Assembly (NCBI GenBank): GCA_026005015.1
Contig: BPKG01000001.1
Location: 625,501 to 689,500, forward strand
Direction of reading: 5' to 3'
From: Burkholderiales bacterium
GTDB taxonomy: Bacteria; Pseudomonadota; Gammaproteobacteria; Burkholderiales; UBA6910
DNA length: 64,000 bases
Shown here: piece by piece, positions 25,698 to 60,683 of the stretch
Layout: every line of letters begins with the position of its first letter
Numbering within the stretch: position 1 is the first letter of the stretch
The notes under the pieces: generated by a model
Database searches by the model: none
What the model was told of the DNA's origin: nothing
Seen by the model: only the letters and a program-made list of their open reading frames with translations
Made by a program: the position numbers and the translations under genes

Positions 25698-25776
25698 GGG
25701 AGTATCCTCTTCCCGGCAAGGTCTTTTCTGCCCTCCTCAAAGAGAGATGAGGATACCACACCGGCCATCCTCCGCT

Positions 25777-26796
25777 TCATCGGAGGCGGGTTTTGCGAAT
25801 TGCAGGCGTAATCACCTGGTGGTCGGACACTGCATTCTCCCGCACCCGCTTGGGCGTGGCCGATTTCGACAGCGACGCCAGCGCCACGAACCACGCCTTG
25901 GGCATATCCGTGGGCAATCCCACGGGAATGCCGGCGATCTTGGGCGTCTGGGCAAAGGGATGGCCCGGCTCCTCAAAGCCGGGCTCGGTGCAACTGATGC
26001 AGGCATAACCGCCGCGGGTACACGAGCCCTCTCCGTTCCACAGGCGAATGTTGCAGTCGGCATGGGCCTGGGTACCCTTGCAGCCCATGTTCTCCATCAT
26101 GCAGCCCAGGTCCGAGGGCTTCTCCGCGCTGGCCTTGAATTCGTAATACTCGTTGCGCGTGCAGCCATGGTGAACGAGATGATCGGCGTAGAAACGCGGC
26201 CGCCCCAGCGCGTCCATATCGCGCTCGGAAAAAAGGCCGAAGGCCAGGCACATGAGGGTCTCGACGACCCAGTTGGGGTGCGTCGGGCAGCCTGCGATGT
26301 TGATGACCGGCAGCCCTGATCGGGAACGATATTCCACACCGAGCAGCCCGCCGGGCTCGTCGCCCTCGTACTGGAGCCCGCAGGCGTCCGTCGGATTGCC
26401 GCCGGCCGCCGTGACCCCACCGTAGGCGGCGCAAGTCCCGACCGCGACCGTATAGCGGGCCACGCTCGCCAGCTCCCGGACCCACTGGATCATGGGGCGG
26501 CCGGTACCGGCAAGGAGGTGAAAGCGCCCGGTGCCGTTCGGGCCCCGAAGCAGCGACCCCTCCACGCACAGCGCGTCGAGCGTCACCTGACCTGACAGGC
26601 AGCGCTCCATGACTCTGGTCACTTCAACCCCCGTCTCCTCGGACAGGGAAGGGTGCCACAAGAAGCGCACGCCCGCCGAGCTCAGCATCTCGAAGAGGTT
26701 GCACGAATCGGCGCACAGCAGCGACATGGTGCAGCCTCCGCAGCCGCCCGACTGCAGCCAGAGAACGTTGATGCCTTCCGGTTTAGGGCCGATCAT
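25777..26796 (-). CDS. hoxB: Regulatory (H2-sensing) [NiFe]-hydrogenase small subunit
   Basis: 339 residues, with no Tat signal peptide, as expected for a cytoplasmic sensor. The first iron-sulfur ligands are C19 and C22 ([15 protein letters not shown]). Further ligands lie in [29 protein letters not shown], and the C-terminal cysteines of [12 protein letters not shown] and [16 protein letters not shown]. The ATG overlaps the stop of the upstream hoxA-like gene. The C-terminal extension (about 40 residues) is typical of HoxB/HupU. Confidence 0.93.
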
Positions 26797-27909
26797 TTTT
26801 TTTCCATTCCGTAACGGGCAAGCTTACTGCGCAGGCCCGCCCTGGAGAGTCCCAGCTCTCGGGCGGCCTGGGTCTTGTTCCAGCGGTGGCGGATGAGGGT
26901 TTCCTTCAGCATGCGGGCTTCCAGGATTTCCATCCGCTCCTTGAGCGTTCCGTCCAGCCGTGACAGGGTGGTGAAGGCCGCTTCGTCGGCCTCTTCCTCT
27001 GCGGCGTGAAACACCTGGGGCGAAAGCAGCTCGGCGCCAAGGCGGGGGCCTCTGGCCAAGGCCAGCATGCGCACAATCTCGTTTTCAAGCTGGCGTACGT
27101 TACCCGGCCAGCGATAGGCTTTGAGCAACGCCAGGGCCTCTTCGGTAAACCCTTCCACGGGCTTGCCCAGCGCCGCCATGGCCCGCGCCAGGATATGGTT
27201 CGCGATGAGCGGAATGTCCATCGGGCGCTCCCGCAACGCAGGCACATGGAGGGTGACCATGGCTAGACGGTAGTAAAGGTCTTCTCGAAAACGGCCCCGC
27301 CGCACCTCCTCCTGGAGGTTTCGGTTGGTGGCGGCGATCACCCTCACGTTCACGCGCAGCGTACGGCTGGAGCCCACCGGCCGGATCTCCCCGTTCTGCA
27401 GCACGCGCAGCAGCTTCACCTGAAACGCGGGTGAGGTTTCACCGATCTCGTCGAGCAATAGGGTGCCACCGTCGGCCTGCTGGAACAACCCCACTATGAT
27501 CCTCGTAGGCGCCGGTGAAGGCCCCGCGCCGGTGACCGAAGAGCTCGCTTTCCAGGAGCGGATCCGGCACCGCGCCGCAGTTTTCCACCACGAAGGCGCG
27601 GCTCGCCCGGAGGGAACGGTCATGGATGGCGCGGGCCAGCAACTCCTTGCCCGTGCCGGATTCGCCGGTGATCATGACGGAGATGTCGTACGGGGCAACC
27701 GCCTCCGCCAGCTCGCACACGGCGTTCAAGGGACTGTCCGGGGCCCGTACCAGGCGGTCCAAGTCGCCCAGGCGGTTTAGAACCTCGCCTTCAGCCTGGT
27801 GGGAACGCGCCTCCTCATCGCCCAGGCGCACGGTCGACCGTTCCGTCACCAGCGCTTCTCTCCGCTGGGGATCGACCTGCGGGCCGCGCGCTGTAACGAT
27901 CGCCTCCAT
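26793..27909 (-). pseudogene. hoxA: Receiverless, frameshifted HoxA-type sigma-54 activator
   Basis: Two overlapping frames together encode an NtrC-family activator. The first part (from ATG 27909) has the Walker A motif [19 protein letters not shown] and ends at [15 protein letters not shown]. The second part continues [19 protein letters not shown] to a Fis-type HTH ([19 protein letters not shown]). One extra base at 27495-27498 separates them; removing it gives about 371 residues. Only about 55 residues precede the AAA+ domain, so the phospho-receiver of classic HoxA is absent. The flanking genes hypB and hoxB are tightly spaced. Either a sequencing error or a genuine inactivation is possible; an intact NtrC-type regulator is at 44436-45893. 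Confidence 0.82.
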
Positions 27910-27919
27910 GCTTCGCGCC

Positions 27920-29188
27920 TTATGCAACCCCCGCGTGCGGCCTCTCGTGACGCTGACTTCGCAGCCAGCCGTACCAGGCGTCCATGCCCTCCCCTGTCTG
28001 AGCCGACACGCGCAACACCCGAATCGCAGGATTGACCTCCCGGGCAAAGGCGATGCAGCGTTCGATATCGAATTGAAGATAAGGCAGGAGATCGATCTTG
28101 TTGATGACCATGAGCTCACTCGCCTTGAACATGTGGGGGTATTTGATCGGCTTGTCCTCGCCTTCGGTCACCGACAGAATGACCACTTTGGCCTGCTCTC
28201 CCAAATCAAACAGCGCCGGACACACCAGATTGCCCACGTTTTCGATCATCACCACCGAGCCGAACGGCGGATCGAGTTCGCGCAGACCCCGCGCCAGCAT
28301 TTCAGCGTCCAGGTGGCAACCGGTTCCGGTGTTGATCTGGATCACCTTGCATCCCGTGGCTCGGATACGCTCTGCATCGTTGATTGTCGCCTGGTCGCCT
28401 TCGATTACATGGATCTGCAGCTCTTCCTTGAGATCGCGAATGGTGCGCTCCAGCAACGTGGTTTTTCCGGCACCCGGGGAGCTCATGAGGTTCAGTGCCA
28501 CCACGCCGCGCCCCGCGAGCCATCCCCGATTGCGTTCGGCGAGCAACCGGTTTTTAGCAAGGACTTCTTCCTCAAGCTCCATGGTGCGGGTGTGCCCTTT
28601 AGCCTGGCCCCCGATCGCCTGACCGTCCGGCACGGGCCCGTGAGCATGTTCATGGGCGTGGTCATGGGCATGATCGTCGGGATGATCGTGTCCGTGGCCG
28701 CGAAAGGCATCGCGATCATGCGTGTGCCCGTGATCGTGCGCGATCCCCAGGGCATGGGCGCGGTCATGCTCCGCTTTGCTCAGCGTGATCGCCTTTCCCG
28801 TTGCCGGATCCGTCAGAGTGATTGTCTCTGTGTCTGAACAGCCGCAGGTCATGCACATTCCGTCCACCTCCATCTCTTTGATTTTCAGCTCCTCTCCGGC
28901 AATCAGCTCGAGGCTCGAGCTGCCACACGGACAACGGCCGAAGGGTTCGGCAAGCGCCATCTCACCGCCGCAGCTTCGGCAAATGGCCCGCCCCGGCACC
29001 TCGATGATTTCCAGTTCTGCGCCCTCGGCCGGCGTGCCCCTTGCGCACACATCGAAACAAAACCGCACTGCATCGGGCATCACGGCCGACAGCTTGCCGA
29101 TTTCCAAGGTCACGCGCAGGACCTTCGCGCCCCGGGCCTGTTCGCTCACGATCGCGACGATGCTGCGGGTGATGCCGAGCTCATGCAC
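27920..29188 (-). CDS. hypAB: HypA-HypB fusion, nickel insertion factors in one frame
   Basis: 422 residues from a GTG start ([11 protein letters not shown]), preceded by GAGGAG. Residues 1-110 are HypA: nickel-binding MHE start and a zinc site C70-x2-C73 with C86-x-C88, ending KIKEMEV. With no stop codon the frame runs into HypB at residue 111 (MCMTCGCSD). HypB has a His-rich metal store (about 140-175), P-loop [20 protein letters not shown] and NKIDLL. HypA and HypB normally are separate proteins that deliver Ni to the hydrogenase large subunit. A GGAGG at 28867-28871 lies 8 nt before the HypB ATG at 28858, so HypB could also be made alone. Confidence 0.92.
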
Positions 29189-32489: not shown

Positions 32490-34892
32490 CTATTGGCTAT
32501 TGGTCAGCGATCTTGCCGCAGCGACAGCAGCCTGTCCCAGCGCCAGCCCGCCATCGTTCGGAGGCACATGCCGGTGGGTCAGTACCTCAAAGCCGATGGC
32601 CTTGAGCCGCGCCGTCACCTGTTCCAGCAGGACGCGGTTCTGGAAGACGCCGCCCGACAAGGCAACCGTCCTGACAGGCTTGTCGCCGCCGGCCTCCCGG
32701 CTGAGCGTGTCGACCATGCGCGCGATGACGATAGCCAGCCCCTTGTGGAAGCGAGCCGCAATGACCGGGACCGGCGTGCCCAAAAGCAGATCCCCGAGCA
32801 ACGCCTGCCACATGGCCAGCGGCTCCACGTAAGGGAGATGGGCGGACTTGAGCCTCGGAATCGCGAACGGATAGGCGAGGAGTTCGTCCTCCTCCTTCAG
32901 CGTGCGCTCGTCCACCAGGGCTTCGAGCGCCACCGCCGCCTCCCCTTCGTACGTGACCCGCTCCCGACACACGCCTGCCGCCGCCGCGACGGCGTCGAAC
33001 AGCCGCCCGCACGAGCTGGCGAGCGGGCTGTTGATCCCGCGGCTGATCATCCGATCCAGCAGGCGGCGAGGCTTGGCCTCCAAGAAGCGGTAAAGGTCGA
33101 GCTCAGCGTAGTTCATCGCGAACCGGGCCCAACCCATCTCGGCCATCAGGTGGGCGTAGGTGTTGCGCCACGGCTCGTACACCGCCTGCTCCCCACCCGG
33201 CATCGCCACCGGCTTGAAGGTGCCCAGCCGCTTGCACTCGCGGTAGTCAGCGAGCAGGAACTCCCCGCCCCACAGGGTGCCGTCCGTGCCGAAGCCCAAC
33301 CCGTCGAGCGCCACACCGATCACCGGTCCCCCCTCCAGCGGGAAGGCGTTTTCAGCCAGACAGGCGGCGATATGGGCGTGATGATGCTGCACTTCCAGCA
33401 GGCTCGCGCCCCAGCGCGCCGAGAGCTCTTGCCCCCACTTGCGCGACAGATACTCGGGATGGCAATCCACCGCAACGATCCGCGGTTCGTGCTCGAACAG
33501 CTTCAAATACCGCTCGACGCAGTTGCGGTAATCCGCGTAGGTCAGCGCGTCTTCCAGGTCGCCCATGTGGTGCGACACGATGGCCCGTCCGTCACGCAAC
33601 AGGCAAAACGCATTTTTCAGCTCGCCACCCATGGCGAGCACCGCTGGAGCGGCGGAAAAACCAGGTGCGAGGGACAGAGGGGCCGGCGCGTAACCCCGTC
33701 CCCGCCGCAGGACGCGCGGTGCACCGGCCATCTCGCGCACCACGGAATCGTCCACGCGCCGGGCGACGTCCCGGTTATGCATCAGGAAATACTCGGCGAT
33801 GCCGCCCAGGCGGGCGCGGGCCTCGGCATTGTCGATGCACTGGGGCTCGTCCGAGCGGTTGCCGCTGGTCAGCACGATGGGCCGATTCATCCGCCGCAGC
33901 ATCAAGTGGTGCAGCGGCGTGTTGGGCAACATAAAGCCCAGGGTCTTCACGCCGGGCGCCACGCTTTCCGCCACCCGCTCCGGTCCGGTCGCATCCAGAA
34001 CGACGATCGGGCCGGCCGGGCTCAGTAGCAGCGCTTCTTCGCCCTCGGTCACCACACAGTAACGGCGCACCGTCTCCACATCCCGCGCCATGAGCGCGAA
34101 AGGCTTGCGGCTGCGCCGTTTGAGCCGGCGCAGGCGGGCGACGGCCGCTTCATTGCAGGCGTCGCACGCGAGCTGGAACCCTCCCAGCCCTTTGATCGCG
34201 ACGATATGCCCGCGTTGGAGCAGCGTGCAGACAGCGTCCACGTCGTCCAGCATGGTAAAAGCGTCGACCGCCACCGGCGCCCCATCGGCGCGCTCCAACC
34301 AGGCACGGGGCCCGCAGGCATGGCAGGCGATCGGCTGCGCGTGGAAGCGGCGATCCGCGGGGTCGACGTATTCAGCGCGGCACTGCGGGCACATGGCGAA
34401 CGCCCGCATCGTGGTCGTGGCGCGGTCGTAAGGGATGGCCTCGATGATGGACAAACGCGGGCCGCAGCGGGTGCAATTGGTGAAAGGATAGCGGTAGCGC
34501 CGCGCGAAGGGATCGAATACTTCCTGGACGCATTCGGGACAGGCTGCCGCGTCGGGCACGACGCCGGTGCTGACAGTGGTTGCATGGCTGCCAAGAATGC
34601 GAAAATCCGGGTGCTGGGGAAGAACTGCGGTCGGCTCGCGCTCGATGCGATCGATTCGGGCAAGCGGCGGAGCTTCGCGAAGCAAGGCTGCAGCGAACCC
34701 ATCGAGGGCAGCGACGGGACCGCACACATGGATGCTCACGCCCTGCCCGTCGTTCGCCACCGAGCCGCGCAGGCCGTAGCGGCGGGCGAGCCGCCACACG
34801 GTGGGCCGAAACCCCACGCCTTGAACCAAGCCCTGCACCCGGATGCGCTCGGCCGCCTCCTGGGTGGTCTGCATATCGGCGACATCGTTCAT
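32490..34892 (-). CDS. hypF: Carbamoyltransferase HypF
   Basis: 800 residues from the ATG at 34892, which overlaps the NHL gene stop. Domains in order: acylphosphatase-like (about 15-105, QGLVQGVGFRPTVWRLARRYG), two zinc fingers (CPECVQEVF...CTRCGPR; CPQCRAEY...CHACGPR), YrdC-like, and a Kae1/TobZ-like domain (VEVQHHHAHIAACLAENA; ALSGGVFQNRVL). It makes the carbamoyl group used for cyanide ligands and loads it on HypE. Confidence 0.97.
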   Translation of the reverse strand: MNDVADMQTTQEAAERIRVQGLVQGVGFRPTVWRLARRYGLRGSVANDGQGVSIHVCGPVAALDGFAAALLREAPPLARIDRIEREPTAVLPQHPDFRILGSHATTVSTGVVPDAAACPECVQEVFDPFARRYRYPFTNCTRCGPRLSIIEAIPYDRATTTMRAFAMCPQCRAEYVDPADRRFHAQPIACHACGPRAWLERADGAPVAVDAFTMLDDVDAVCTLLQRGHIVAIKGLGGFQLACDACNEAAVARLRRLKRRSRKPFALMARDVETVRRYCVVTEGEEALLLSPAGPIVVLDATGPERVAESVAPGVKTLGFMLPNTPLHHLMLRRMNRPIVLTSGNRSDEPQCIDNAEARARLGGIAEYFLMHNRDVARRVDDSVVREMAGAPRVLRRGRGYAPAPLSLAPGFSAAPAVLAMGGELKNAFCLLRDGRAIVSHHMGDLEDALTYADYRNCVERYLKLFEHEPRIVAVDCHPEYLSRKWGQELSARWGASLLEVQHHHAHIAACLAENAFPLEGGPVIGVALDGLGFGTDGTLWGGEFLLADYRECKRLGTFKPVAMPGGEQAVYEPWRNTYAHLMAEMGWARFAMNYAELDLYRFLEAKPRRLLDRMISRGINSPLASSCGRLFDAVAAAAGVCRERVTYEGEAAVALEALVDERTLKEEDELLAYPFAIPRLKSAHLPYVEPLAMWQALLGDLLLGTPVPVIAARFHKGLAIVIARMVDTLSREAGGDKPVRTVALSGGVFQNRVLLEQVTARLKAIGFEVLTHRHVPPNDGGLALGQAAVAAARSLTNSQ

Positions 34893-36103
34893 GAAGCCAG
34901 CTCCTCCGAGAGCCGCCAGAGCAGCACGCGGTTGTTGCCCGAATCGCTGACCACGACCAGTCCATCGCGGTGCATGATTCCATAGGGCCAGCACAGGCTG
35001 TCCCGCGCGGGAAGCTGCCAGCGGTTATCTCCCTTGGCGTGGAAATCCGGCTGCCCCGTGAGCGCCCTGGCCTCCGCCCCGGTGCGGTAATCTTCCGCCC
35101 GCCACGCGAGCAGACGGGAGTTGGCGGTATCCGCGACAAGGAGCCAGCCTCCAGCGGCATCCACGCCGTAGGGCATGTTGAGGCTGGCAGCGCTGGGCCA
35201 GTAGAGGGATTGGTTATGGTCCACTTGGTGAAAATCGCGCTGCCCCAGCACCGCATCGCAGGGTGTCCAGTTCTCGCCCGGAATCGCGTCCCACACCATG
35301 ATGCGGTTATTGCCTGCGTCGGCCACGCAGAGCCGGCCCTGCCACACGACGATGCCGTGGGGCCAGCGCATGCTGGCGGCCGTGGGCGCTCCCCCGCCGT
35401 TCTCGTCGCGGCTGACGAAATCACGCTGCCCCAACACCAGATCCGCCGGTTGGCCGTTCACCTCCGGCAGACCGTTCCACATGAGCACACGCCGGTTGCC
35501 GGTGTCGGCGACCCATAACCGGACGCCATCCCAGTGCACGCCGTAGGGCCAGAATAGACTGCCGGCGGATGGATCGTCCTTGCCGCCGTTGGGCTCGACC
35601 GACTCAAAGTCTTTCTGCCCGAGCACCCGGTCCGCCGGAACGTTGTGGTCCCTGGGAAGGGTTTTCCAGATCAGCACCCGGTGGTTCCAGGCGTCGGCGA
35701 CCGCCATCCCGTCGCCGCAGAGCGCGATACCGGTGGGCACATTCAGCGTTGCCGGGCCCGCCGGTCCTTTCGCGTTACGTCCCTCGTGCGCGAAATCGGG
35801 CTGCCCAATGACCCAGTCTGCCGGCGTCCCGTCCTGAGACGGCACCCGCGCCCAACCGAGCAGTCGGTGATGGCCAGTGTCGCTGACCCACAGCGGTCCC
35901 TCAACCCCTGCAAGGCAGGCTCCCCGGGGTCCAAAGAGCGAGGCGGCCTCCGGCTTCACGGGGAGCGCCAGGCCCTCGCCGCTGCGGGCGGCGCCGATGC
36001 ACGCGAAGGGTCCGCCGCGGTCCAGCACGGGCACAGCAGACGTTCCGCCGACCATCTCGCGCTTCAAGGCCGGAGTCCACCTCACCCGTAAAGACGTCGC
36101 CAT
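34889..36103 (-). CDS. NHL-repeat beta-propeller protein of the group 1h hydrogenase operon
   Basis: 404 residues from the ATG at 36103. Six or so repeats of about 50-60 residues carry motifs such as LWVSDTGHHRLLGW, MAVADAWNHRVLIW, LWVADTGNRRVLMW, LCVADAGNNRIMVW and VVVSDSGNNRVLLW, each followed by GQxDF. No signal peptide is seen. It starts 2 bp after the NifU-Rieske stop. NHL proteins recur in clusters of actinobacterial-type hydrogenases; their role is unproven, and a structural or electron-transfer docking role is a guess. Confidence 0.9.
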   Translation of the reverse strand: MATSLRVRWTPALKREMVGGTSAVPVLDRGGPFACIGAARSGEGLALPVKPEAASLFGPRGACLAGVEGPLWVSDTGHHRLLGWARVPSQDGTPADWVIGQPDFAHEGRNAKGPAGPATLNVPTGIALCGDGMAVADAWNHRVLIWKTLPRDHNVPADRVLGQKDFESVEPNGGKDDPSAGSLFWPYGVHWDGVRLWVADTGNRRVLMWNGLPEVNGQPADLVLGQRDFVSRDENGGGAPTAASMRWPHGIVVWQGRLCVADAGNNRIMVWDAIPGENWTPCDAVLGQRDFHQVDHNQSLYWPSAASLNMPYGVDAAGGWLLVADTANSRLLAWRAEDYRTGAEARALTGQPDFHAKGDNRWQLPARDSLCWPYGIMHRDGLVVVSDSGNNRVLLWRLSEELAS

Positions 36104-36105
36104 CG

Positions 36106-37011
36106 CTACTCTTCCAACCGCACCTGGACCCGATCGCCGAGCACCCGGACGGCATGCACCCGCAACTGGACCTCGGGGGCCGTCAGGCATTCGCCCGTCT
36201 CCAACAAGTACTGAAAGCCGTGATAGGGGCACGTGATGATGCCATCGCGGACCTCTCCCATCTCCAAAGGCATCCCGAGGTGGGCGCAGCTATTGTCGAA
36301 GCAGCTCACGTGGTCGCCGCGTTTGCTGAGCAACACGGAGCGCCCTTTGATCTTGCACTCGGTCACGCCGCCTTCCGGGATGTCGTCGAGCCGGGCGGCA
36401 TCCACCCAGCCGGAACCCGCGTGCAGCGCGAAGGGGCTGATAAAGTGCACCGTGGCCACGCCTTTGTTTTGAGTATCCGCAGCACCCTTGCTTACCTGTT
36501 GGATATGGAGAATCTCCGGGCAGTGGATGCGGATTGCCCTTTCGACGCCTTCGGTCAGCGTCTGGCTTGAAGCGGGACAGCCCTGGCACGACCCGATCAG
36601 ACGGATTTCCACCGTGTCGGGGGGCTTGACTGCCACCAGCTCCACGTCGCCGCCGTGGGACTGCAAGAACGGGCGCACTTCGTCCAGCGCTCTCTGAACC
36701 CGCGTCTCCAGGGGCTCCCTGACGAGTCCGTGGAAACGCAACACCCCATAGACCACTTGGTCGCTGACGGCCTCCCGCATGCGAGCAAGCGCCGCCGCAT
36801 CGCCCTTCAGCGCGCGAATCAGGCGTTTCAGGGCTTCCTTATGCAGGTCCTCGATCGCCGATTTGAGCGCCTGCACGGTCAGCCGCTGCCCTTCGTCCCA
36901 GTCGGCGATGATCGCTTCGAGACGGGTGATCGCCTGAACCAGCCGTTCCAGATCGGCCGCGGAATCGCCGCCACTCTGGAAGCCTGCCTGATCGGTCGAG
37001 GGGCCGTTCAT
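36106..37011 (-). CDS. NifU-like domain fused to a Rieske [2Fe-2S] domain
   Basis: 301 residues. A helical N-terminus (about 15-110) leads into a NifU C-terminal-type domain with C142/C145 (GSCQGCPASS). A Rieske domain follows with C242/H244 (SCAHLG) and C261/H264 (CPYHGFQYLLETGECL). The protein is soluble. A protein with a cluster-scaffold domain joined to a redox Rieske domain could assemble and pass electrons for the group 1h hydrogenase. It lies between the small membrane protein and the NHL gene. Similar proteins are known from actinobacterial-type hydrogenase operons. Confidence 0.92.
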   Translation of the reverse strand: MNGPSTDQAGFQSGGDSAADLERLVQAITRLEAIIADWDEGQRLTVQALKSAIEDLHKEALKRLIRALKGDAAALARMREAVSDQVVYGVLRFHGLVREPLETRVQRALDEVRPFLQSHGGDVELVAVKPPDTVEIRLIGSCQGCPASSQTLTEGVERAIRIHCPEILHIQQVSKGAADTQNKGVATVHFISPFALHAGSGWVDAARLDDIPEGGVTECKIKGRSVLLSKRGDHVSCFDNSCAHLGMPLEMGEVRDGIITCPYHGFQYLLETGECLTAPEVQLRVHAVRVLGDRVQVRLEE

Positions 37012-37265: not shown

Positions 37266-37496
37266 TCAGACCAGCGCGAGGATGATCAAACCCAGCAGGA
37301 TTCCGGGCACTGCCCCGGTCGGGCCGAACATGGCTCCCATCAGGGCCGCCAGCTCATTGCCCAGATCTTTTCCAGCGAGCCTCATACCCGCCACCGCCCC
37401 GCCGCCCATCGCCAGCAGGAAAGCCAAAAAAGTCCAAATCGCGATCGTGAAGACGCCAAGCTGTCCGGTTGCCAATTGATTCAAGATTCCCTCCAT
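37266..37496 (-). CDS. Small Gly/Ala-rich membrane protein of the hydrogenase operon (76 residues)
   Basis: Two hydrophobic segments (about 16-40 and 53-76) flank a short loop LAGKDLGNELAA. The C-terminus is glycine-rich (GAMFGPTGAVPGILLGLII). It starts just downstream of the TPR gene. No family is recognised. Together with the 74-residue protein it forms a pair of small membrane proteins in the unit. Confidence 0.75.
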   Translation of the reverse strand: MEGILNQLATGQLGVFTIAIWTFLAFLLAMGGGAVAGMRLAGKDLGNELAALMGAMFGPTGAVPGILLGLIILALV

Positions 37497-37524: not shown

Positions 37525-38538
37525 TCAAAGCCGACTCGCACGCCCATCGCCATTGCCGCGACGGGCCGACTGATCGGCAAGCTCCTGCTCGATCTCCGCC
37601 AGTGCCTCTTCCACGACGGCTGCGCTTCCAACTTGATTCAGGCTTAAAAAAATGCGCCGCGCCTCCTCATAGAGTTCCTGCGCCCGGAGAAGATTGGCAC
37701 GACGCCCGGAACCGGGGTTTTCAAGATCATCGGGAAGATTTCTGAGCACGTTGGCTTTGTTTGAAATGGTATTGGCATATTCCAGAGGCGTGTCGCGGGC
37801 GTTGCGGACCTTGAGCGCCTCATCGTAGGCGGCAAGCGCGCGCAAGTTGTTTTCCAGCGGATGGCCGGAGGCGGCATATTGCAGCGCGTTGCCGAGGTTG
37901 TTCTGAACCATTGCGTATTCGGTCGGATGATCGACCAGGTTGATGACCTTGAGGACCTCTTCGAACGACTGAACGGCCAGCGCCTCGCGCATTTTGCCGC
38001 GCTCGTCCGACAGCGGAATCGACAAATAGGCAATCGCCAAGTTATTGTGGAGAATGGCGTATTCCTGGGGGTACGCGTCGCGGGTGAAGACTTTCAAGGC
38101 TGCGTGATAGCACCGGATCGCCTCTTGGATGCGGGCCGCGCCGGCGCTGGAGAGCGACTGCAGCACCAGCCCCAGGTTCATTTCCGCTTCCGCAACCTCT
38201 TCCGTCCGCCCCTTCTCCTTGAGGACGGGGATCGCCTCTTCATAGCACGCCCGGGCCCGATGGAGCGCGTCGACACCGCCATCGGGCAATGCCTGTAAGG
38301 CCGTGCCCATGCGGGCGCGCAGCCGGGCCCTGAGCAAGACCGCCTCAGCGGGACAGAGGTCGAGCGCGCGCTCGTAGAGCGCGACGGCGTGCTGCAACTG
38401 ATCCGGGGTTTTCGGCCGCATCTGCATGCCCATGGCAATTTCCATGAGCATTTCGGCCTTCTCCTCCGGCGTCCCCGCCGCCGACTCCGCCGCCTGAATG
38501 GCGGCCTTGAATTGGGACGCCGCCATGGTCTGCGCCAT
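37525..38538 (-). CDS. Tetratricopeptide-repeat protein of the hydrogenase operon
   Basis: 337 residues, cytoplasmic, with AGGAGG 5 nt before the ATG. Repeating helical pairs with TPR-like spacing are visible: LQHAVALYERALDLCP, RARACYEEAIPVLK, AIRCYHAALKVF, LRALAAYDEALKV and RAQELYEEARRIF. It probably mediates protein interactions or assembly of the hydrogenase. It has a strong sigma-70-like promoter of its own (38582-38610), so the downstream accessory and hyp genes may be expressed independently of the hydrogenase structural genes. Confidence 0.85.
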   Translation of the reverse strand: MAQTMAASQFKAAIQAAESAAGTPEEKAEMLMEIAMGMQMRPKTPDQLQHAVALYERALDLCPAEAVLLRARLRARMGTALQALPDGGVDALHRARACYEEAIPVLKEKGRTEEVAEAEMNLGLVLQSLSSAGAARIQEAIRCYHAALKVFTRDAYPQEYAILHNNLAIAYLSIPLSDERGKMREALAVQSFEEVLKVINLVDHPTEYAMVQNNLGNALQYAASGHPLENNLRALAAYDEALKVRNARDTPLEYANTISNKANVLRNLPDDLENPGSGRRANLLRAQELYEEARRIFLSLNQVGSAAVVEEALAEIEQELADQSARRGNGDGRASRL

Positions 38539-38636: not shown

Positions 38637-39005
38637 TTACACTCCCTGAGATTTCGCCAAGTTGGACAGGACCAGGGCGGCCGCCTCGGGGCTCCACTGG
38701 GCAAGGACGACATGCTGTTGAAAATCTTCAGCAAAACCGTTTTCCCGGAAAAACTCCTGAGCGTGAACCACCCGGTCTCCCCGGGCATTGCGCGTCTTGA
38801 CCAGCAATCCCCCGGCAGACCCGGGCACCAAGGGGATGACCAGGATCTTGTCTTCCCGGGCGACGAGCGCAACCGTCTGAGCGCCGGCAAAGTAAAGGTC
38901 GTACATCTCCCGCGGCAAATAGAGGCTGCCCCGACAGATGGAAACGGCCCTCTGCGGCCGATCAGCTTCAACAAGGCCGGCGGGATCAGGCTTCCGCGTA
39001 TTCAT
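38637..39005 (-). CDS. AbrB/SpoVT-like small protein of the hydrogenase operon
   Basis: 122 residues. The core SICRGSLYLPREMYDLYF followed by VALVAREDKILVIPLVPG has the strand-turn-helix-strand pattern of AbrB-type proteins. This resemblance is a reading by eye and not certain. It overlaps the protease gene by 20 bp, so it is co-translated. The C-terminal part (VVHAQEFFRENGF, AQWSPEAAALVLSNLA) is not recognised. A regulatory role or a hydrogenase-assembly role is possible. Confidence 0.6.
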   Translation of the reverse strand: MNTRKPDPAGLVEADRPQRAVSICRGSLYLPREMYDLYFAGAQTVALVAREDKILVIPLVPGSAGGLLVKTRNARGDRVVHAQEFFRENGFAEDFQQHVVLAQWSPEAAALVLSNLAKSQGV

Positions 39006-39459
39006 CGATCATCTGCTCAAGGTCAGCGATCACCTTCTGCGCCGACAGGCGCACCGGCTCGCTCAGTTCCAGGCCAAAATCGAGGCGAGCCGCCTCGATC
39101 AGGTACACGGTCACATCGGTCGGGAAGTCTTCGCGAAAGAGCCGCTTTCCTGCGGCCAGCGCATGGTCCCAGCGGAAATCGTGCAAGGTGTATCCAGGCT
39201 CGTGATCGGAAGCCAGCTCGCTTCCTGGCACCTGGAAGATGGCGCCGGCCTCGGATCCGGTCCTGGCTGCATCGACGATGACCAGTTTGCGCGTGCCCCG
39301 GGCCTGGAACATCACCTCCATTCCGCCGGTCCCGGCGTCGAACACGCGCACATGGTCACGTGGCCGCTCGACAAGATAGGCCTGCAACGACCGGGCGACG
39401 AACACACCCACGCCGTCGTCGCTGCGAACCGGATTGCCACAACCGATGATCGTGAGCAT
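38986..39459 (-). CDS. [NiFe]-hydrogenase maturation endopeptidase
   Basis: 157 residues of the HyaD/HupD/HybD fold. The start IIGCGNPVRSDDGVGVFVA holds the conserved nickel-binding aspartate. A second site lies in VFDAGTGGMEV, and TLHDFRWDHALAAG carries the conserved histidine. It removes the C-terminal tail of the large subunit after nickel insertion. Only one such gene is present, which matches one large subunit with a tail (41322-42917) and one without (hoxC). Confidence 0.93.
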   Translation of the reverse strand: MLTIIGCGNPVRSDDGVGVFVARSLQAYLVERPRDHVRVFDAGTGGMEVMFQARGTRKLVIVDAARTGSEAGAIFQVPGSELASDHEPGYTLHDFRWDHALAAGKRLFREDFPTDVTVYLIEAARLDFGLELSEPVRLSAQKVIADLEQMIDEYAEA

Positions 39460-39622
39460 GCCTTACCCCCTCTTCACCGAGACAGCGGGGGACTCGCTCC
39501 ACCGTCCAAGGCGATCAAGCGTTTCTCTGGGCGGTCGCAAGGCGCGGCATCAAGCTCGGTGGAAAACCCACGGCGCCCTGGCGGCAGCCGCAACCCGGGA
39601 GCCCGGGCGCTCGGCGCCGTCT

Positions 39623-39937
39623 TTAGATGCGCCACAGCCGGCACGACCACTTCGGCCTCACCGGGATTTGCAATTCCGGCAGCTCGCAGAACTGCCGATG
39701 AATGACGAAATACATACAGGTCTCGCAGGCTTGTTCAATCTCTCCGCCAGCACCATAAGGCTGGCTGGTAAAACCGGCGACCTTGAGCTTGGAGACATAA
39801 TCGTCAGGCCGGATCGCCTGTAGTCGCGCCACGATACGGTTGACCTCCTCGCTGGTATAAGCGCGCTCCCGCCATTCCGTCTCCAGCCCTTGTTGAAGGA
39901 GATGCTCCAGCTCGCGCCGCAAGGCTTCCTCATCCAT
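39623..39937 (-). CDS. Four-cysteine HiPIP-like small protein A
   Basis: 104 residues from the ATG at 39937. The N-terminal 50 residues are helical; the C-terminus carries cysteines at 71, 74, 84 and 99 in C-x2-C-x9-C-x14-C, followed by RLWRI. The pattern, with PELQIPV between the third and fourth Cys and a tryptophan next to the last Cys, recalls high-potential iron-sulfur proteins (C-x2-C-x14-16-C-x13-14-C). The second spacing is shorter and there is no Tat signal. It is a close paralogue of the 104-residue protein encoded just upstream. Alternatively it could be a zinc-binding domain. Confidence 0.75.
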   Translation of the reverse strand: MDEEALRRELEHLLQQGLETEWRERAYTSEEVNRIVARLQAIRPDDYVSKLKVAGFTSQPYGAGGEIEQACETCMYFVIHRQFCELPELQIPVRPKWSCRLWRI

Positions 39938-39991
39938 CGTTTCCCTCCTAAACCTCATCGCCCCCAGAGATTCTGGGGACCGGCGCTGCGA

Positions 39992-40306
39992 TCAGATCCG
40001 CCATAAGCGGCACCACCAATCCGGCTCCACCGGCAGATTAAGCTCCGGCAGATCGCACCATTTCCGATGGACCAGGTAGTACATGCACTCCTGGCAGCGC
40101 ATCTTGTCCTCGCCGTAGGGATGATCTACAAATCCTGCCAGCACCAGCTTGCCTTTCAGGTCATCTGCGGGAAGCTCACGCAGCGCTGCCAGCAACTCCC
40201 CGAACTGCCGGTCATTCTCGGGAAAAGGCTCTGTTTGGGTCTCCAGCCCATCAGCCAGCATCCGCGCGATCTTGGCACGCAGTTGGTCTTCCTCGTCGCG
40301 TCGCAT
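39992..40306 (-). CDS. Four-cysteine HiPIP-like small protein B
   Basis: 104 residues, the same length as protein A, with cysteines at the same positions (71, 74, 84, 99): CQECMYYLVHRKWC, then LPELNLPVEPDWWCRLWRI. Shared positions include CMY, HR, LPEL, PV, W and CRLWRI. It has an acidic N-terminus and no signal peptide. It lies between ompW and protein A in the group 1h hydrogenase operon. A soluble iron-sulfur electron carrier for the hydrogenase is a plausible guess, untested. Confidence 0.75.
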   Translation of the reverse strand: MRRDEEDQLRAKIARMLADGLETQTEPFPENDRQFGELLAALRELPADDLKGKLVLAGFVDHPYGEDKMRCQECMYYLVHRKWCDLPELNLPVEPDWWCRLWRI

Positions 40307-40628
40307 CTACCCCATTCCCTTCTGTTCGGCGCCGGCCGTGACAACCCCCTAGATCCTTCTTCTGTCGCAGGACCCTGATGCTGTCGAGCCAGGACGCTGT
40401 CCATCAATCCTTGCCGCACCCTACCGAAGATTTCATCACCGAATGCCCGAAATCGCCTCGTCGGCGCTCCCCCTCTCCCCAAGCCCTCGTCTGGAGAGGA
40501 GGACGACTGCATACGCTCAGAGGCAAAGTCCCCTCCTCCTCGGAAAAAGGACGAGAGGAGAGGGCTGATCAGCGCTTCCTCTTGTCGCAAAGTGAAGTAA
40601 GGCCCTCTCGGGAGCATGAGCACGACGG
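40307..40628. other. 322-bp intergenic stretch in the hydrogenase region
   Basis: I see no coding region. It holds pyrimidine- and purine-rich arms, CCCTCTCC near 40471-40478 and GGAGAGGG near 40557-40564, with CTCGTC/GACGAG inside them, which could fold into a long imperfect stem between ompW and the HiPIP-like genes. This may separate expression of upstream and downstream genes. Confidence 0.4.
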
Positions 40629-41216
40629 CTAAAACTTCATCCCCACCCCGGCCCCGATGATCCACGGGTCGATTTTCAAGTCGGTAAGCGGCGCCCCTGC
40701 CGAATTGACATCGGTCCTGATGAAAACCTTCTTTAAGTCGAGATTGAAGGAAAAGCGCTCATTCAAGGCGACATCGAACCCCACCTGCAACGCCGCTCCC
40801 CAGCTCTCCTTGTCCAGGGACAGCGGCGAGGCAAGGTTCACGTCGTGAAAACGAGTATAGTTGATACCAGCCCCCACATAAGGGCTGAACGGCTGGCCGG
40901 GCGTAAAGTGGTACTGCAGCAGGAGCGTGGGCGGCAGCACCTTGACCGAACCCAGGGGAGCGCCGTTCAGGCTCACGTTGAATTTCCTATCGGTTGCGAC
41001 CAGCTCCAGCGCCAGATGGTCGGTCAAAAAGTAGCTGACATCCACTTCTGGAGCGACTTCCGAGCTCACATCCAGACCGGGCAGGGATGAGTCCACATCC
41101 GGGTTGATGGAGAGCAGCCGGACACGACCCAACCAATCCCCAGCGCCCGCATCGGCGGAAGTCGTCGAAGCCGCCAGCAAAGCGGCCACAATGCTCAAGC
41201 TCCATCGCTTGTTCAT
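40629..41216 (-). CDS. ompW: OmpW-family outer membrane protein
   Basis: 195 residues from the ATG at 41216, behind GAGGAG. A signal peptide (cleavage near TSADAGA) is followed by an eight-stranded OmpW barrel: DHLALELVATDRKFNV, PFSPYVGAGINYTRF and the C-terminal DPWIIGAGVGMKF ending in Phe. OmpW proteins admit small hydrophobic compounds. Its place 105 bp after the hydrogenase large subunit gene is unusual. Confidence 0.93.
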   Translation of the reverse strand: MNKRWSLSIVAALLAASTTSADAGAGDWLGRVRLLSINPDVDSSLPGLDVSSEVAPEVDVSYFLTDHLALELVATDRKFNVSLNGAPLGSVKVLPPTLLLQYHFTPGQPFSPYVGAGINYTRFHDVNLASPLSLDKESWGAALQVGFDVALNERFSFNLDLKKVFIRTDVNSAGAPLTDLKIDPWIIGAGVGMKF

Positions 41217-41257
41217 GAGAGTCTCCTCCTGAGTTGGTCTGATTTCTTGCGCCAACA

Positions 41258-41284
41258 CCCACCCGCCCGCCGCGGGCGGGTGGG
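41258..41284. other. Very stable GC hairpin between hydrogenase large subunit and ompW
   Basis: CCCACCCGCCCGC (41258-41270) and GCGGGCGGGTGGG (41272-41284) are perfect inverted repeats of 13 bp. There is no T-run on either side, so it is more likely an mRNA-stabilising or attenuating element than a classic terminator. Confidence 0.65.
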
Positions 41285-41321
41285 CGAAAGCGAAGGATTG
41301 ATTTGGCTACGGCAACCCGGC

Positions 41322-42917
41322 TCAGGCCGTACGGAAACGGGCGAGCTCCTTGCCCGTCTTGGCATCGTGGGCGTGCACGGTGCACACGAGGCAGGAGTCG
41401 AAAGACCGGGCCACATGTCCCACTTCGACGGGGTCGGTGGGATCGGCAATCGGTGCGCCGATCAACGCTTCCTCGATCGGCCCCCGGTTGCCTTGAGCGT
41501 CCCGCGGGCCCACGTTCCAGGTCGTCGGGGCGATGATCTGGTAGTTCTTGATTTTGCCGTCCTTGATTTCAATCCAGTGGCATAGCGCGCCGCGAATCGC
41601 CTCGGTCGCCCCCCAACCACGCCCATCCTTCTCTTTGGGCTTGATGTACCAGGGTTCGTTCAAGCGGAATTCCCGCAGGCAGCGCTCGGCCTGGCGATAG
41701 AGCTTGACCGTCTCGTGCATGCGGGCGATCTGCCTCAGATGGAGACTCGGCCCACCCATCTTCTTGAACATGTCCAGGATGAGCCCATCGTAATGCTGCC
41801 AAGATTCGCCGTGCTTGCCGCCCGCGATCAACTGACGGGCGAACGGTCCAGCCTCCAGGCGACCGAATTCGGAATGCAGTACCGCGGTATCCCAGGTGTA
41901 CTTGCCAGAGAAGTCGGTGTTGTTCTTCTGGATCGGGCGAGTGACCCGGTCGAACGGATGGACATCGGTCGGGCCCTCTTCGTACCAGGCGTGGACGGTA
42001 TTTTCACGAACCTTATCCTGGGTCATCAGCACGTGCCGGTCGGTCTTGCTGTCGTAGACACCGCTCTTCATGATGACCGCCGCATTGCGACCTTCGATCG
42101 TCGGCTTCTGGTACTTATCCTCGTGCGGCAGATAACCCCAGGAGACGTACTTGCCCACGCCCCCGCCGTATTTGTCCAGCCCGATATCAAGTCCCATGCG
42201 CCAGTAGAATCCCAGGTCTGAATTGGCGTGCGCCGGGCTCTCGTCCAGCCATGCCAGAAAGTCCTCGTAGGTCTTGATCTCTTCGTAACGCTCCAACGAG
42301 CAGCCGAGCCAGACCGGCTCGAGCCAGTTATTCTTGAAATACTCGAGGATCGACCAGGCGCGGGTGATATCGGCCAAGGTCGGGGCGCACATGACGCCGC
42401 CCGGCACCATGTAACTCGAGTGGGGCCACTGCCCGCCGAGCAGCGCATAGATCTCCACGGGCTTGCCCGAAATGGTGACCCCGATCTCGTAGGATCGGCC
42501 CGTGAAGGGCGCAAAGCGTTTGACGGCCTCTTCGTAGAACTTGCTGTTGCGGTACTTCTTGTTGGTCAGGTCGATCGCATACAGACCATAAAAGTAGCGG
42601 GGATTGCTCTGCAAGCTCTCGACGATCTGCCCCAGGTTGCGCGCCAGAATGGCGTTGCGTGGAACCTCGGTCTGCCAGGCCGTGTCCAGGGCCCAGGCGG
42701 CGCAGGTCAAGTGCGAAGCGCCGCAGATGCCGCAGGCCCGCGGCGTCACCACCAGGCCGGCTTGCGGGTCCTTGTCACGCAGAATGATTTCGAATCCGCG
42801 AAACAATTCCGCCTGGGTCCAGGCATTGACCACCACCCCGTTGTCGATGTCCACCCGAACGTCCAGGTCGCCCTCAACGCGCCCGACCGGCGAGATGTCC
42901 AGCGTTTGTACTGCCAT
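41322..42917 (-). CDS. hhyL: Actinobacterial-type (group 1h/5) [NiFe]-hydrogenase large subunit
   Basis: 531 residues. NiFe ligands are C62/C65 (TPRACGICGASHL) and C509/C512 (DSCLVCTVH). A 16-residue tail follows H515 (AHDAKTGKELARFRTA) and would be cleaved by the endopeptidase. The RACGICG motif, the tail and the lack of a Tat-bearing partner fit the actinobacterial-type uptake hydrogenases studied in Streptomyces, mycobacteria and Cupriavidus, several of which oxidise H2 at atmospheric levels. Subgroup assignment is by motif recognition. Affinity for H2 cannot be read from sequence. Confidence 0.9.
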   Translation of the reverse strand: MAVQTLDISPVGRVEGDLDVRVDIDNGVVVNAWTQAELFRGFEIILRDKDPQAGLVVTPRACGICGASHLTCAAWALDTAWQTEVPRNAILARNLGQIVESLQSNPRYFYGLYAIDLTNKKYRNSKFYEEAVKRFAPFTGRSYEIGVTISGKPVEIYALLGGQWPHSSYMVPGGVMCAPTLADITRAWSILEYFKNNWLEPVWLGCSLERYEEIKTYEDFLAWLDESPAHANSDLGFYWRMGLDIGLDKYGGGVGKYVSWGYLPHEDKYQKPTIEGRNAAVIMKSGVYDSKTDRHVLMTQDKVRENTVHAWYEEGPTDVHPFDRVTRPIQKNNTDFSGKYTWDTAVLHSEFGRLEAGPFARQLIAGGKHGESWQHYDGLILDMFKKMGGPSLHLRQIARMHETVKLYRQAERCLREFRLNEPWYIKPKEKDGRGWGATEAIRGALCHWIEIKDGKIKNYQIIAPTTWNVGPRDAQGNRGPIEEALIGAPIADPTDPVEVGHVARSFDSCLVCTVHAHDAKTGKELARFRTA

Positions 42918-42947: not shown

Positions 42948-43910
42948 TTAAACCACAAAGATGTCCTGCTCAGCCCACGCGGGCGCGGCGTTTTTCGCCG
43001 CACCGGTCAGCGCGATGTAGCCCTTCTTGTCGACACCGGCGGGCAGATCCTTGGGAATGCCCATGACGGTCTGGGTTTTGAACACGGTGCCCGGCGCCAG
43101 GTCGAAGAACGGGAACTCCGGTTCGGTGCACCCCAAGCACGGCATTCCAGCGCGGGTCTTGGAGGACTGTCGGTTCCACAGGATCCGGTTGCAGGGGGAG
43201 TGCGTCATCGGCCCGCGGCAGCCGAGATCGTAGAACAGGCATCCCTTCCGCTGCCCGAACTCGGTCGCGGAAACCTTGTAGGCAAAGTGCATGTTGCGGG
43301 TGCAGCCGGTCTGGGTGAAGCTCTGGAAAAAGGTCTTGGGTCGCTGCAGGTCGTCCAAAGAAATGTCCTTGGCGCGGCCCGTGGCGACCGCGACCAGGAT
43401 CTGGGTGACCCAATCGGGGTGGGCCGGACAGCCTGGAATATTGATCACAGGCAGCCCCGACTTCGCCCGGAAGTCCTTGCCCAGGAATCCGCCATGCTGA
43501 CGCTTCAGAAACTGCAGTCCCTGGGACTCGCTGGGGTTCGGTGCCGTCGCCGGGATGCCCCCCCACGTGGCACAGTCGCCGATCGCGACGACAAACTGGG
43601 CGGCATCGGCAAGCTCCCGCACCCACTGCTTCATCGGCCGTCCGGCAAAGCGGTTCCATTCGCCGGTGCCGTTGGGGGCGTTCACGACGGTGCCCTCGAA
43701 GACGAAAATGTCGAGAGGAATCGCGCCGGACACGCAATCGCGCAGGATCTTCTGGAGATTGTCTCCCAACTCCAGACCCAGCGACGGATGCCAAAGGATA
43801 TTGATCCCGAAGTCCGTGACCAGGTCACAGGCGCTGGGCTCCTCGGCGTTCAGAAACGACATCGTATTTCCGGAACACGCGCCTCCTTGCAGCCAGAGCA
43901 GGTTGGCCAT
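42948..43910 (-). CDS. hhyS: Actinobacterial-type (group 1h/5) [NiFe]-hydrogenase small subunit
   Basis: 320 residues, with GGAGGAG before the ATG and no Tat signal or C-terminal anchor, so it is cytoplasmic. The N-terminal cluster motif is GGACSGNTMSFL: C12 is present, but the usual second Cys of CxGC is replaced (CSGN). C28-D29 follow (PSACDL). Loss of the second Cys fits the family, in which the proximal cluster is reported to use three Cys and one Asp. Other ligands are in GDCATWGG, NIPGCPAHPDW, TGCTRNMHF, GCRGPMTHSPCN and CLGCTEPEFPF. It starts 78 nt after the predicted sigma-54 transcription start. Confidence 0.92.
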   Translation of the reverse strand: MANLLWLQGGACSGNTMSFLNAEEPSACDLVTDFGINILWHPSLGLELGDNLQKILRDCVSGAIPLDIFVFEGTVVNAPNGTGEWNRFAGRPMKQWVRELADAAQFVVAIGDCATWGGIPATAPNPSESQGLQFLKRQHGGFLGKDFRAKSGLPVINIPGCPAHPDWVTQILVAVATGRAKDISLDDLQRPKTFFQSFTQTGCTRNMHFAYKVSATEFGQRKGCLFYDLGCRGPMTHSPCNRILWNRQSSKTRAGMPCLGCTEPEFPFFDLAPGTVFKTQTVMGIPKDLPAGVDKKGYIALTGAAKNAAPAWAEQDIFVV

Positions 43911-44176: not shown

Positions 44177-44425
44177 CTACCCCTTGCGATTGCCGCAAAC
44201 CGGACACTCGGCCTCCAAGGTGTAGCCAAACCAGATCCCCTGGCATCGGCTGCACCAGTGGCCATTGGTTTGTTCCACCGTCAGGCCCAGCTGGCGCGCA
44301 AGCGGTGTGACGCCGAGATCTTTAAAGCCGCCGGGCGTCGCGGGCGGGTTGGTGCGGGAGTAGGGAAAAGGATAAGTCTTTGCCGGAGCGCTTCGGTCAG
44401 GCGGGTCGTCTCGGTCTTCGGACAT
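44177..44425 (-). CDS. Small zinc-ribbon protein (82 residues)
   Basis: From the ATG at 44425, the acidic, proline-rich N-terminus is followed by two CxxC pairs (WCSRCQGIWFG and ECPVCGNRKG) typical of a zinc ribbon or rubredoxin-like knuckle. It starts 10 bp after the NtrC-type regulator gene, in the same direction, and ends before the sigma-54 promoter. The family is unknown to me. Confidence 0.75.
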   Translation of the reverse strand: MSEDRDDPPDRSAPAKTYPFPYSRTNPPATPGGFKDLGVTPLARQLGLTVEQTNGHWCSRCQGIWFGYTLEAECPVCGNRKG

Positions 44426-44435
44426 GGACAGCCTC

Positions 44436-45893
44436 CTATTGGGCACCCGATTTATCCAACTTGTATCGCTTAATCTTGTTGGCCAAGCCGACGCGGGAAA
44501 TACCCAACTCCCGCGCCGCCCGGCTGTAGTTCCATTTATGCTTGAGCAGCGACTGAGAGACCAGATGCATCTCCAGCGCCTCGACTTTTTCCTTCAGCGT
44601 TCCTTTTTCCAACAAGAAAGCAGCCCGTCCATTGTCGGGCTTGGCCGGGAGCAGCTTGGCAAGCTCCGGCGACATGTGCTTGACGGACAGGATCTCCCCG
44701 TCTTCAGCCACGGCGACCATGCGCCGCATTTCGTTCTCGAGCTCCCGCACGTTGCCCGGAAAAGGATAGAGCTTCAGGCGCTGCAGCACCTCGTTCGAGA
44801 TTCCCGCGATGTTCCGATTGATCGACTTGGCGTACTTCTTCGCCGCGTGTTCCGCCAGCACCGGAATATCTTCCACCCGTTCGCGCAAAGGCGGAATGTT
44901 CAGCTCGAAGCCCCGCAGGCGATAATAGAGGTCCTGACGGAACTTCTTCTGTTCAACCAGCTCCTTCAACGGCCGGTTTGACGCGGCAATGATGCGGACG
45001 TTGCAGTGCCGGGTCTGATCCGACCCCAGGGGCTTGACCTCGCCTTCCTGAAGGAACCTCAACAAGCTCACCTGAAAAGACGGCGACACTTCGGAGATCT
45101 CGTCAAGGAACACGGTGCCGCCATCGGCTGCGGGGAAAAGCCCCAGGCGGTCGCTGATGGCGCCGGTAAAGGCGCCTCGTTTGTGCCCAAACAATTCCGA
45201 GTGCAGCAATTCGTCGGGCAGAGCGCCGCAGTTTTGTGCCAGAAAAGGAAAGGCCTTTCGAGCGCTGAAGAAATGCACCGCTCGAGCCATCAGCTCCTTT
45301 CCCGTCCCGGTCTCGCCCTGGATCAAGACCGGCAGGTCAGTGGCAGCTGCCTGGCGCGCCAAGTTGCAAACTTCCACCATCTTGTCGCTGGCGAACACCA
45401 GTTTGTCGAATTCGTAGGTGTCCTGGAGCAGCTTGACCATGTGGTCGTTCTGCCGCCGCAGCACGTCGTCGCTGAACTTGAGCTCCCTGCTCAGGTAGCG
45501 GTGACGCCGGGCGAGCTCGCGGCTTTCAAGCGCCCGCTTGATGAGGAGCAGAAGATGGTCAGGCTGCCATGGCTTGGAGACAAACTGGTATATCGCCGCC
45601 TCGTTGATGGAACGGATGATATCGTCGGGGTCCGTGTATCCGGTAATCAGGACGCGAATGACCTCCGGATGGGACACCCGCGCCTCCCGAAAGAACTCGA
45701 CCCCGGTCATGTCGGGCATACGCTGGTCGCACAACACCAGGTCGACTTCCTCCCGGTTCAAGATTTCCAGCGCCTCCCGCGCAGAGGCTGCTGTGAGCAC
45801 TCGGTAGTCCTCTTCCAGGCAGCGCGTCAATGATGCCCGGACCTGGGCCTCGTCATCGACGACCAGAACCGTCCAAAAGCCGTCGGACTGCAT
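44436..45893 (-). CDS. NtrC-family sigma-54 response regulator (HoxA-type)
   Basis: 485 residues. The receiver domain (about 7-120) has D13/D14 and phospho-acceptor D56 (LVLCDQRMPD). The AAA+ domain has Walker A QGETGTGKELMARAV, the sigma-54 contact loop GAFTGA and Walker B GGTVFLDEISE. A Fis-type HTH follows (NYSRAARELGISRVGLANK). It is intact, unlike the hoxA-like gene at 26793-27909. It is next to a sigma-54 promoter of the group 1h hydrogenase, which is its likely target. HoxJ is the probable kinase, by context. Divergent from pldA. Confidence 0.92.
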   Translation of the reverse strand: MQSDGFWTVLVVDDEAQVRASLTRCLEEDYRVLTAASAREALEILNREEVDLVLCDQRMPDMTGVEFFREARVSHPEVIRVLITGYTDPDDIIRSINEAAIYQFVSKPWQPDHLLLLIKRALESRELARRHRYLSRELKFSDDVLRRQNDHMVKLLQDTYEFDKLVFASDKMVEVCNLARQAAATDLPVLIQGETGTGKELMARAVHFFSARKAFPFLAQNCGALPDELLHSELFGHKRGAFTGAISDRLGLFPAADGGTVFLDEISEVSPSFQVSLLRFLQEGEVKPLGSDQTRHCNVRIIAASNRPLKELVEQKKFRQDLYYRLRGFELNIPPLRERVEDIPVLAEHAAKKYAKSINRNIAGISNEVLQRLKLYPFPGNVRELENEMRRMVAVAEDGEILSVKHMSPELAKLLPAKPDNGRAAFLLEKGTLKEKVEALEMHLVSQSLLKHKWNYSRAARELGISRVGLANKIKRYKLDKSGAQ

Positions 45894-59947: not shown

Positions 59948-60268
59948 CTATCCAGCGGGCTGATCGCAGACCTGCACTATCCCGTTCTCCACCCGCACCG
60001 GGAAGGTGGCGACGCCCTCGTACGCCGGGGGGGCCAGCACCTCTCCGGTCTTGATGGAAAAGCGGGCTCCGTGGCGCGGGCACACGATCACGTCGCCCTC
60101 GATGTCGCCGCTCGCGAGATCCCCGCCGTCGTGGGTACAGAGATCCTCGATGGCGTAGAACTCCCCGTCCAGGTTGATCACCGCCACCGGCCGCCCGTCC
60201 AGATCCACGGTGCGGCAGGCGCCCGGAGGGATCTCCTCCACGGGAGCGACGTCGTACCACTCGGCCAT
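59948..60268 (-). CDS. Rieske-type [2Fe-2S] ferredoxin
   Basis: 106 residues from the ATG at 60268. Rieske motifs C-x-H (LCTHDGGDL) and C-x2-H (VCPRHGARFSIKTGEV), like dioxygenase-type ferredoxins. No signal peptide. Located directly behind sufT, so it may serve or be matured by the Suf system. Confidence 0.93.
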   Translation of the reverse strand: MAEWYDVAPVEEIPPGACRTVDLDGRPVAVINLDGEFYAIEDLCTHDGGDLASGDIEGDVIVCPRHGARFSIKTGEVLAPPAYEGVATFPVRVENGIVQVCDQPAG

Positions 60269-60326
60269 GTCGGATGAATGAATCAGTCGTCGAAAGCGAG
60301 GCACCGGGCCTTCGGCTCTCCGGTTC

Positions 60327-60683
60327 TCACAACATCCCCAGTTGCAGCTTCGCCGCCTCGGACATGCGCTCCATGGTCCAGGGCGGCTCCCAGGTGAGTT
60401 CCACCTTCACGTCCTTCACTCCTTCGACGGCGCTCACCCGGTCCCGGACCACGTCCGGAAAGGTCTGGGCCACGGGGCAACCGGGGGCCGTGAGGGTCAT
60501 GGTGATCGCCACCTCTCCCTCGGGCGTCACCTCCAAGCCGTACACCAGTCCCAAGTCGTAGATGTTGACCGGGATCTCGGGATCGTAGATCTCCCGCAGC
60601 GCCGCGATCACCTGGCCCTCCAGCCCTTCCTGGGGGATCGCCTCGTCCTGCCTTTGCGCCACGTCTTCCCAATGGGTGCTCAT
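60327..60683 (-). CDS. sufT: SufT-type (DUF59/MIP18) iron-sulfur assembly protein
   Basis: 118 residues. MIP18 core: VIAALREIYDPEIPVNIYDLGLVYG, VAITMTLTAPGCPVAQTF with the conserved Cys, and VELTWEPPWTMERMSEAAK. SufT helps mature Fe-S proteins. Starts 10 bp after sufU. Confidence 0.94.
   Translation of the reverse strand: MSTHWEDVAQRQDEAIPQEGLEGQVIAALREIYDPEIPVNIYDLGLVYGLEVTPEGEVAITMTLTAPGCPVAQTFPDVVRDRVSAVEGVKDVKVELTWEPPWTMERMSEAAKLQLGML

Follow-up and report, generated by a model that had tools for sequence, protein, structure and literature searches.

Two adjacent genes in the window, the whole 64,000-nucleotide stretch of DNA analysed here, encode small four-cysteine proteins (A and B) that are ancient paralogues located in the operon of a group 2a (Huc-type) [NiFe]-hydrogenase and are predicted to contain a HiPIP-like cluster domain. 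We favour, at slightly under even odds (probability about 0.48), the reading in which A and B act as cytoplasmic [4Fe-4S] relays for the hydrogenase, in place of the HucM stalk. The operon in the window contains the following genes:

34889–36232, minus strand: NHL-repeat-type operon protein (name assigned by synteny with, and similarity to, annotated operons)
36106–37011, minus strand: hucE, NifU + Rieske protein (family role, PMC6883350)
37025–37249, minus strand: 74-aa small hydrophobic protein, likely in the membrane; 64 of 64 complete A-type operons
37266–37496, minus strand: 76-aa small hydrophobic protein, likely in the membrane; 55 of 64 complete A-type operons
37525–38538, minus strand: TPR protein, conserved in group 2a operons
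38637–39005, minus strand: 122-aa protein of no known family, conserved in the operon
38986–39459, minus strand: hydrogenase maturation protease (TIGR00072)
39623–39937, minus strand: protein B, 104 aa, paralogue of A; absent from eight loci that have A and the downstream protease gene
39992–40306, minus strand: protein A, 104 aa, HiPIP-like, C-x2-C-x9-C-x14-C-x2-W; retained at all loci studied
40629–41258, minus strand: OmpW-family outer-membrane protein gene (PF03922, E 3e-33), between hucL and A
41322–42917, minus strand: hucL, large subunit of the group 2a [NiFe]-hydrogenase (Huc 7UUS/7UTD, E 3e-192)
42948–43910, minus strand: hucS, group 2a small subunit, no Tat signal; Lys212, Tyr229, and Tyr301 conserved
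44177–44446, minus strand: 89-aa CxxC...CPxCG protein of no family, rubredoxin/zinc-ribbon-like, upstream of hucS

The preliminary description had placed two adjacent 104-residue paralogues at the coordinates listed for A and B, with cysteines at positions 71, 74, 84, and 99 of each and a common C-terminal CRLWRI. All of these features were confirmed, both reading frames being on the minus strand. In the mechanical list of open reading frames, B starts at 39958, giving 111 aa. When the sequence is read directly, however, AGGAGG is found six bases ahead of the ATG at 39937, and B was therefore taken to start there. With A as the query against the window's genome, B was recovered at an E-value of 6.9e-25 and 42% identity. 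This similarity is far beyond chance, and the two are true paralogues. No substitution of the four cysteines occurs in the alignments of 39 A and 41 B sequences; in one additional B, at locus L044, the second cysteine is replaced by Arg. The aromatic residues next to the cysteines, Tyr76, Trp97, and Trp102, are conserved in both alignments. No family of Pfam or NCBIfam covers A or B, and a scan of positions 39400–41400 found no promoter or terminator.

The hydrogenase itself had been assigned to group 1h. This was wrong: by both subunits, the enzyme belongs to group 2a. The large subunit matches Huc of M. smegmatis (7UTD/7UUR/7UUS) at 3e-192 versus 7e-39 for the group 1h enzyme 5AA5, and the small subunit gives 1e-164 versus 9e-34. 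The subunits have no Tat signal, and the operon includes hucE and the NHL and TPR genes. The hucE, TPR, NHL, and hyp genes are the described content of group 2a operons (PMC7784904), and the same content is seen here. The proposed association of the protein pair with group 1h is thus absent, and a tight association with group 2a is found instead. The enzyme of Methylocapsa aurea has been described as group 2a (PMC12319191), and A is present at its locus. Elsewhere in the window, a distant second pair of hydrogenase large and small subunits (24252–28167, minus strand) lies with HupR-like reading frames; the pair probably encodes a regulatory hydrogenase of HoxBC/HupUV type, to be compared with the regulatory hydrogenase of Cupriavidus pHG1. 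A reading frame at 59951–60406 (minus strand), far from the operon, has weak similarity to HucE (42 bits).

Protein A was found at 82 loci, 80 of them in genome contigs from Alpha-, Beta-, and Gammaproteobacteria, Acidithiobacillus, and Nitrospira, and two on plasmids. The hucL gene is present at 80 of the 82; it is missing where the contig begins at A (L006) and at an isolated copy of A (L070). The typical gene order is hucS-hucL-A-B-protease. B is present in 58 of the 64 complete operons, and at eight loci A is followed directly by the protease gene with no B between them, so that A is the invariable member of the pair. Twelve records of the plasmid collection have A/B, and these are exactly the 12 with a HucL at 75% identity or higher. 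A/B are absent from five group 2a operons, those of Thermus, Mycobacterium, Sulfobacillus, Runella, and Hymenobacter. Within the window's class, A/B-type proteins occur in three of 274 genomes, one of which (G472) has a broken locus. The 89-aa CxxC protein accompanies 57 of the 64 complete A-type operons. In this genus, and also at L140, the OmpW-family gene separates hucL from A; elsewhere A usually follows hucL directly. A-like proteins were also seen outside hydrogenase operons (L152:1495–1893, L143:1468–1809, and L070:3916–4239), one of them very short.

The tree comprises 85 rows, 47 of A and 38 of B, and one branch with support of 100/100 separates the two sets. A and B thus form a pair of ancient sister clades, and the duplication predates the spread among these groups. 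Within the A side of the tree, the loci without B do not all fall together. This suggests that B has been lost repeatedly, the alternative being that B was gained later.

The resemblance of the cysteine layout to HiPIPs, noted at the outset, is supported both by the predicted structures and by one sequence match. In A/B, nine residues separate the second and third cysteines and 14 the third and fourth; the HiPIPs collected for comparison have x8 to x14 and x12 to x15, respectively, so that the "shorter central gap" attributed to A/B is no real difference. The lack of a Tat signal was correctly described: alignments inspected by eye contain no twin-arginine N-terminus and no hydrophobic leader, whereas most of the collected HiPIPs carry a Tat signal. 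In general, HiPIPs are considered to be carriers that work in the periplasm.

AlphaFold models were obtained from alignments built without the plasmid row, and the mean pLDDT was 93.9 for A and 95.1 for B. The top-ranked chains from Foldseek were re-aligned with VIA-align, with 10 entries listed per protein. All 10 listed matches are HiPIPs, for A and for B. Among these matches, the Z-scores are 4.5–5.2 over 52–63 residues for A and 4.7–5.7 over 53–66 residues for B, and the rmsd values are 2.0–3.4 over 52–66 residues. Foldseek on its own gave no significant match for either model. A Z-score near 5 is modest; the exclusive presence of HiPIPs among the listed matches is the stronger argument that the predicted models have the HiPIP fold. 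Each protein seems to consist of a HiPIP-like cluster domain (approximately residues 60–104) with a largely helical stretch of about 60 residues before it.

At the sequence level, A matches one Tat-exported HiPIP (L085) with an E-value of 6.2e-5 per genome, or approximately 0.02 over all 299 genomes searched. This HiPIP matches PF01355 at 1e-20 and has the same x9 gap as A/B. L085 also came top among unrelated reading frames with an HMM built on the A/B cluster domain (E 5e-5, with A alone), the other HiPIPs being unranked; since it was originally found with A, this rank is not independent. The profile search recommended earlier was less favourable. HMMER and hhalign gave no link between A/B and HiPIPs at the level of the family: hhalign of A1 and A2 against an alignment of 28 HiPIPs returned probabilities of 17 and 9, with A no better than cysteine-preserving shuffles. 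No HiPIP was found among solved structures, whether these were searched with single sequences or with profiles. The curated Pfam cut-off of PF01355 was not reached, the best E-value being 0.2, in two of 39 A members and in no B member. Because this cut-off is missed, profile methods fail to link the families, and a signal peptide is absent, A and B are named HiPIP-like and not members of PF01355.

In M. smegmatis, Huc reduces menaquinone in a chamber reached via the HucM stalk (PMC10017518). No HucM gene was detected at the 82 A loci, the 64 complete operons included, and DUF1641 was found in none of 11 whole genomes with A, including that of the window, while the controls were positive. What these operons have is A, usually B, and the small hydrophobic proteins. 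The 74- and 76-aa proteins belong to no Pfam family and are kept in A/B-type operons, whereas they were undetected in HucM-type group 2a operons. The Mycobacterium group 2a operon encodes a DUF1641 protein that matches HucM (7UUS) at 2.9e-34, and the Thermus and Sulfobacillus operons encode DUF1641 proteins above the Pfam cut-off (3e-9 and 4e-6); those of Runella and Hymenobacter have neither A/B nor HucM. The HucM contrast comprises just these five non-proteobacterial operons and runs parallel to phylogeny.

In the relay reading, A and B would be dedicated partners of the proteobacterial and Nitrospira form of the group 2a uptake hydrogenase. The four cysteines of A, and likewise those of B, would hold one [4Fe-4S] cluster each; we infer both the type and the potential of these clusters. 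A/B might dock on HucS, and electrons would then flow from its distal-cluster end through A/B to the respiratory chain. This relay would replace the stalk that brings quinone to mycobacterial Huc. An electron-carrier role of A/B is plausible, and a relay is the simplest reading. In its favour are the invariant cysteines, the predicted HiPIP-like fold and the L085 match, the close linkage to hucL in genomes and plasmids, the failure to detect HucM at A loci, and an earlier proposal for Acidithiobacillus ferrooxidans. It should be mentioned that the working potentials of HiPIPs are usually well above that of quinone, which counts against a relay. So do the conservation of the quinone site, the eight loci without B, the failure of profile methods to reach the HiPIP family and of Foldseek alone to give a significant match, the modest Z-scores, and the small, phylogenetically confounded set of operons behind the HucM contrast.

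HucS of M. smegmatis holds quinone by Lys212, Tyr229, and Tyr301 (PMC10017518), and these residues are conserved in 71–72 of 72 A/B-type HucS sequences. HucS may therefore reduce quinone directly, which leaves room for assembly or docking roles of A/B. Assembly or quality control, unlikely in our view, would make A/B redox-active factors for HucSL that leave the mature enzyme, with HucS reducing quinone by itself; they might, for example, help to build or oxidise the clusters of the small subunit, or protect against O2. The conserved menaquinone-site residues would agree with this role, as would the location of the A/B genes between hucL and the maturation protease gene. Moreover, HucE, the other Fe-S protein of the operon, is required for activity in mycobacteria even with an artificial acceptor (PMC6883350). 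However, the protease is encoded in the group 2a operons of other phyla, and HucE in most of these, although A/B are missing; in addition, the predicted fold of A/B resembles that of electron carriers.

A/B-type and other enzymes are distinguished by 17 positions of HucS, ten of which fall at residues 206–231 and 285–305, near the quinone site (for this region, picked post hoc, the hypergeometric value is 3e-4, and 7e-4 conditional on conserved columns). Judged from these sequences, the clustering would fit docking of a partner near the quinone site; the two classes also differ phylogenetically. It would also suit a mainly structural role, in which A/B dock the hydrogenase to the 74- and 76-aa membrane proteins and replace HucM, the cluster only holding the fold. 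The failure to detect HucM at any A locus and the presence of the 74-aa protein in every complete operon point the same way, but the four invariant cysteines and the HiPIP-like model suggest a redox cluster, and we consider a purely structural role quite unlikely. Binding of zinc instead of an Fe-S cluster is very improbable: four-cysteine proteins often bind zinc, the sequence links to HiPIPs are weak, and low-scoring Pfam matches to families that bind metal occur in a few B members (DUF2284 at 4e-4 in three of 41, the FmdE zinc finger at 0.018 in one), but A/B have no CxxC...CxxC double knuckle, their cysteines are flanked by the conserved aromatics described above, and all structural matches listed are HiPIPs.

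Consumption of atmospheric H2 by group 2a hydrogenases is widespread, and outside the HucM-containing enzymes their electron route to respiration is not settled. A conserved, operon-bound, HiPIP-like cytoplasmic pair that was not found beside HucM at any locus is a concrete candidate for that route, which in the proteobacterial enzymes now becomes testable. A wider reading, which we hold to be doubtful, is that group 2a has two routes to the respiratory chain: the HucM stalk, by which quinone is brought to the enzyme, and, in the proteobacterial and Nitrospira enzymes, a duplicated cytoplasmic HiPIP relay with small membrane proteins. If this were true, A and B would represent a cytoplasmic branch of HiPIP-fold carriers.

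One gene of this kind appears to have been labelled before. In a 2020 paper (PMC7735108), the gene DN052_04130 of the Acidithiobacillus ferrooxidans hup operon was termed a putative HiPIP; the protein was detected, and it was proposed to link the group 2a hydrogenase to quinone. The operon, as presented in the portions of that paper used here, is of the same type as the A/B operons, and, judged by gene order, DN052_04130 is probably protein A. Those portions deal with one species and do not mention a paralogue, wide conservation, structural support, or a contrast with HucM; relative to them, the A/B pair, its conservation, and the HucM contrast appear to be new. In our literature search, HiPIP, hydrogenase, and huc were not found treated together.

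Among the known systems, HiPIPs (PF01355; Chromatium purpuratum 3HIP and Rhodothermus marinus 3H31) have in common with A/B the pattern C-x2-C-x(n)-C-x(12-15)-C, the W-C-x2-W end, and a similar fold of the cluster domain, predicted on the A/B side. Unlike them, A/B have no Tat signal, carry an additional N-terminal helical part, stay under the Pfam cut-off, and are tied to the operon of a cytoplasmic hydrogenase. HucE (NifU-Rieske, PMC6883350) is, like A/B, a putative Fe-S protein of the same operon, but it has other domains and occurs both with and without A/B. HucM (7UUS chain Q, DUF1641) is an alpha-helical scaffold with a coiled-coil stalk, not HiPIP-like, and was not found beside A/B; it is an accessory subunit of a group 2a hydrogenase, as A/B may be, and both are candidates for the same task, that of reaching the membrane quinone pool.
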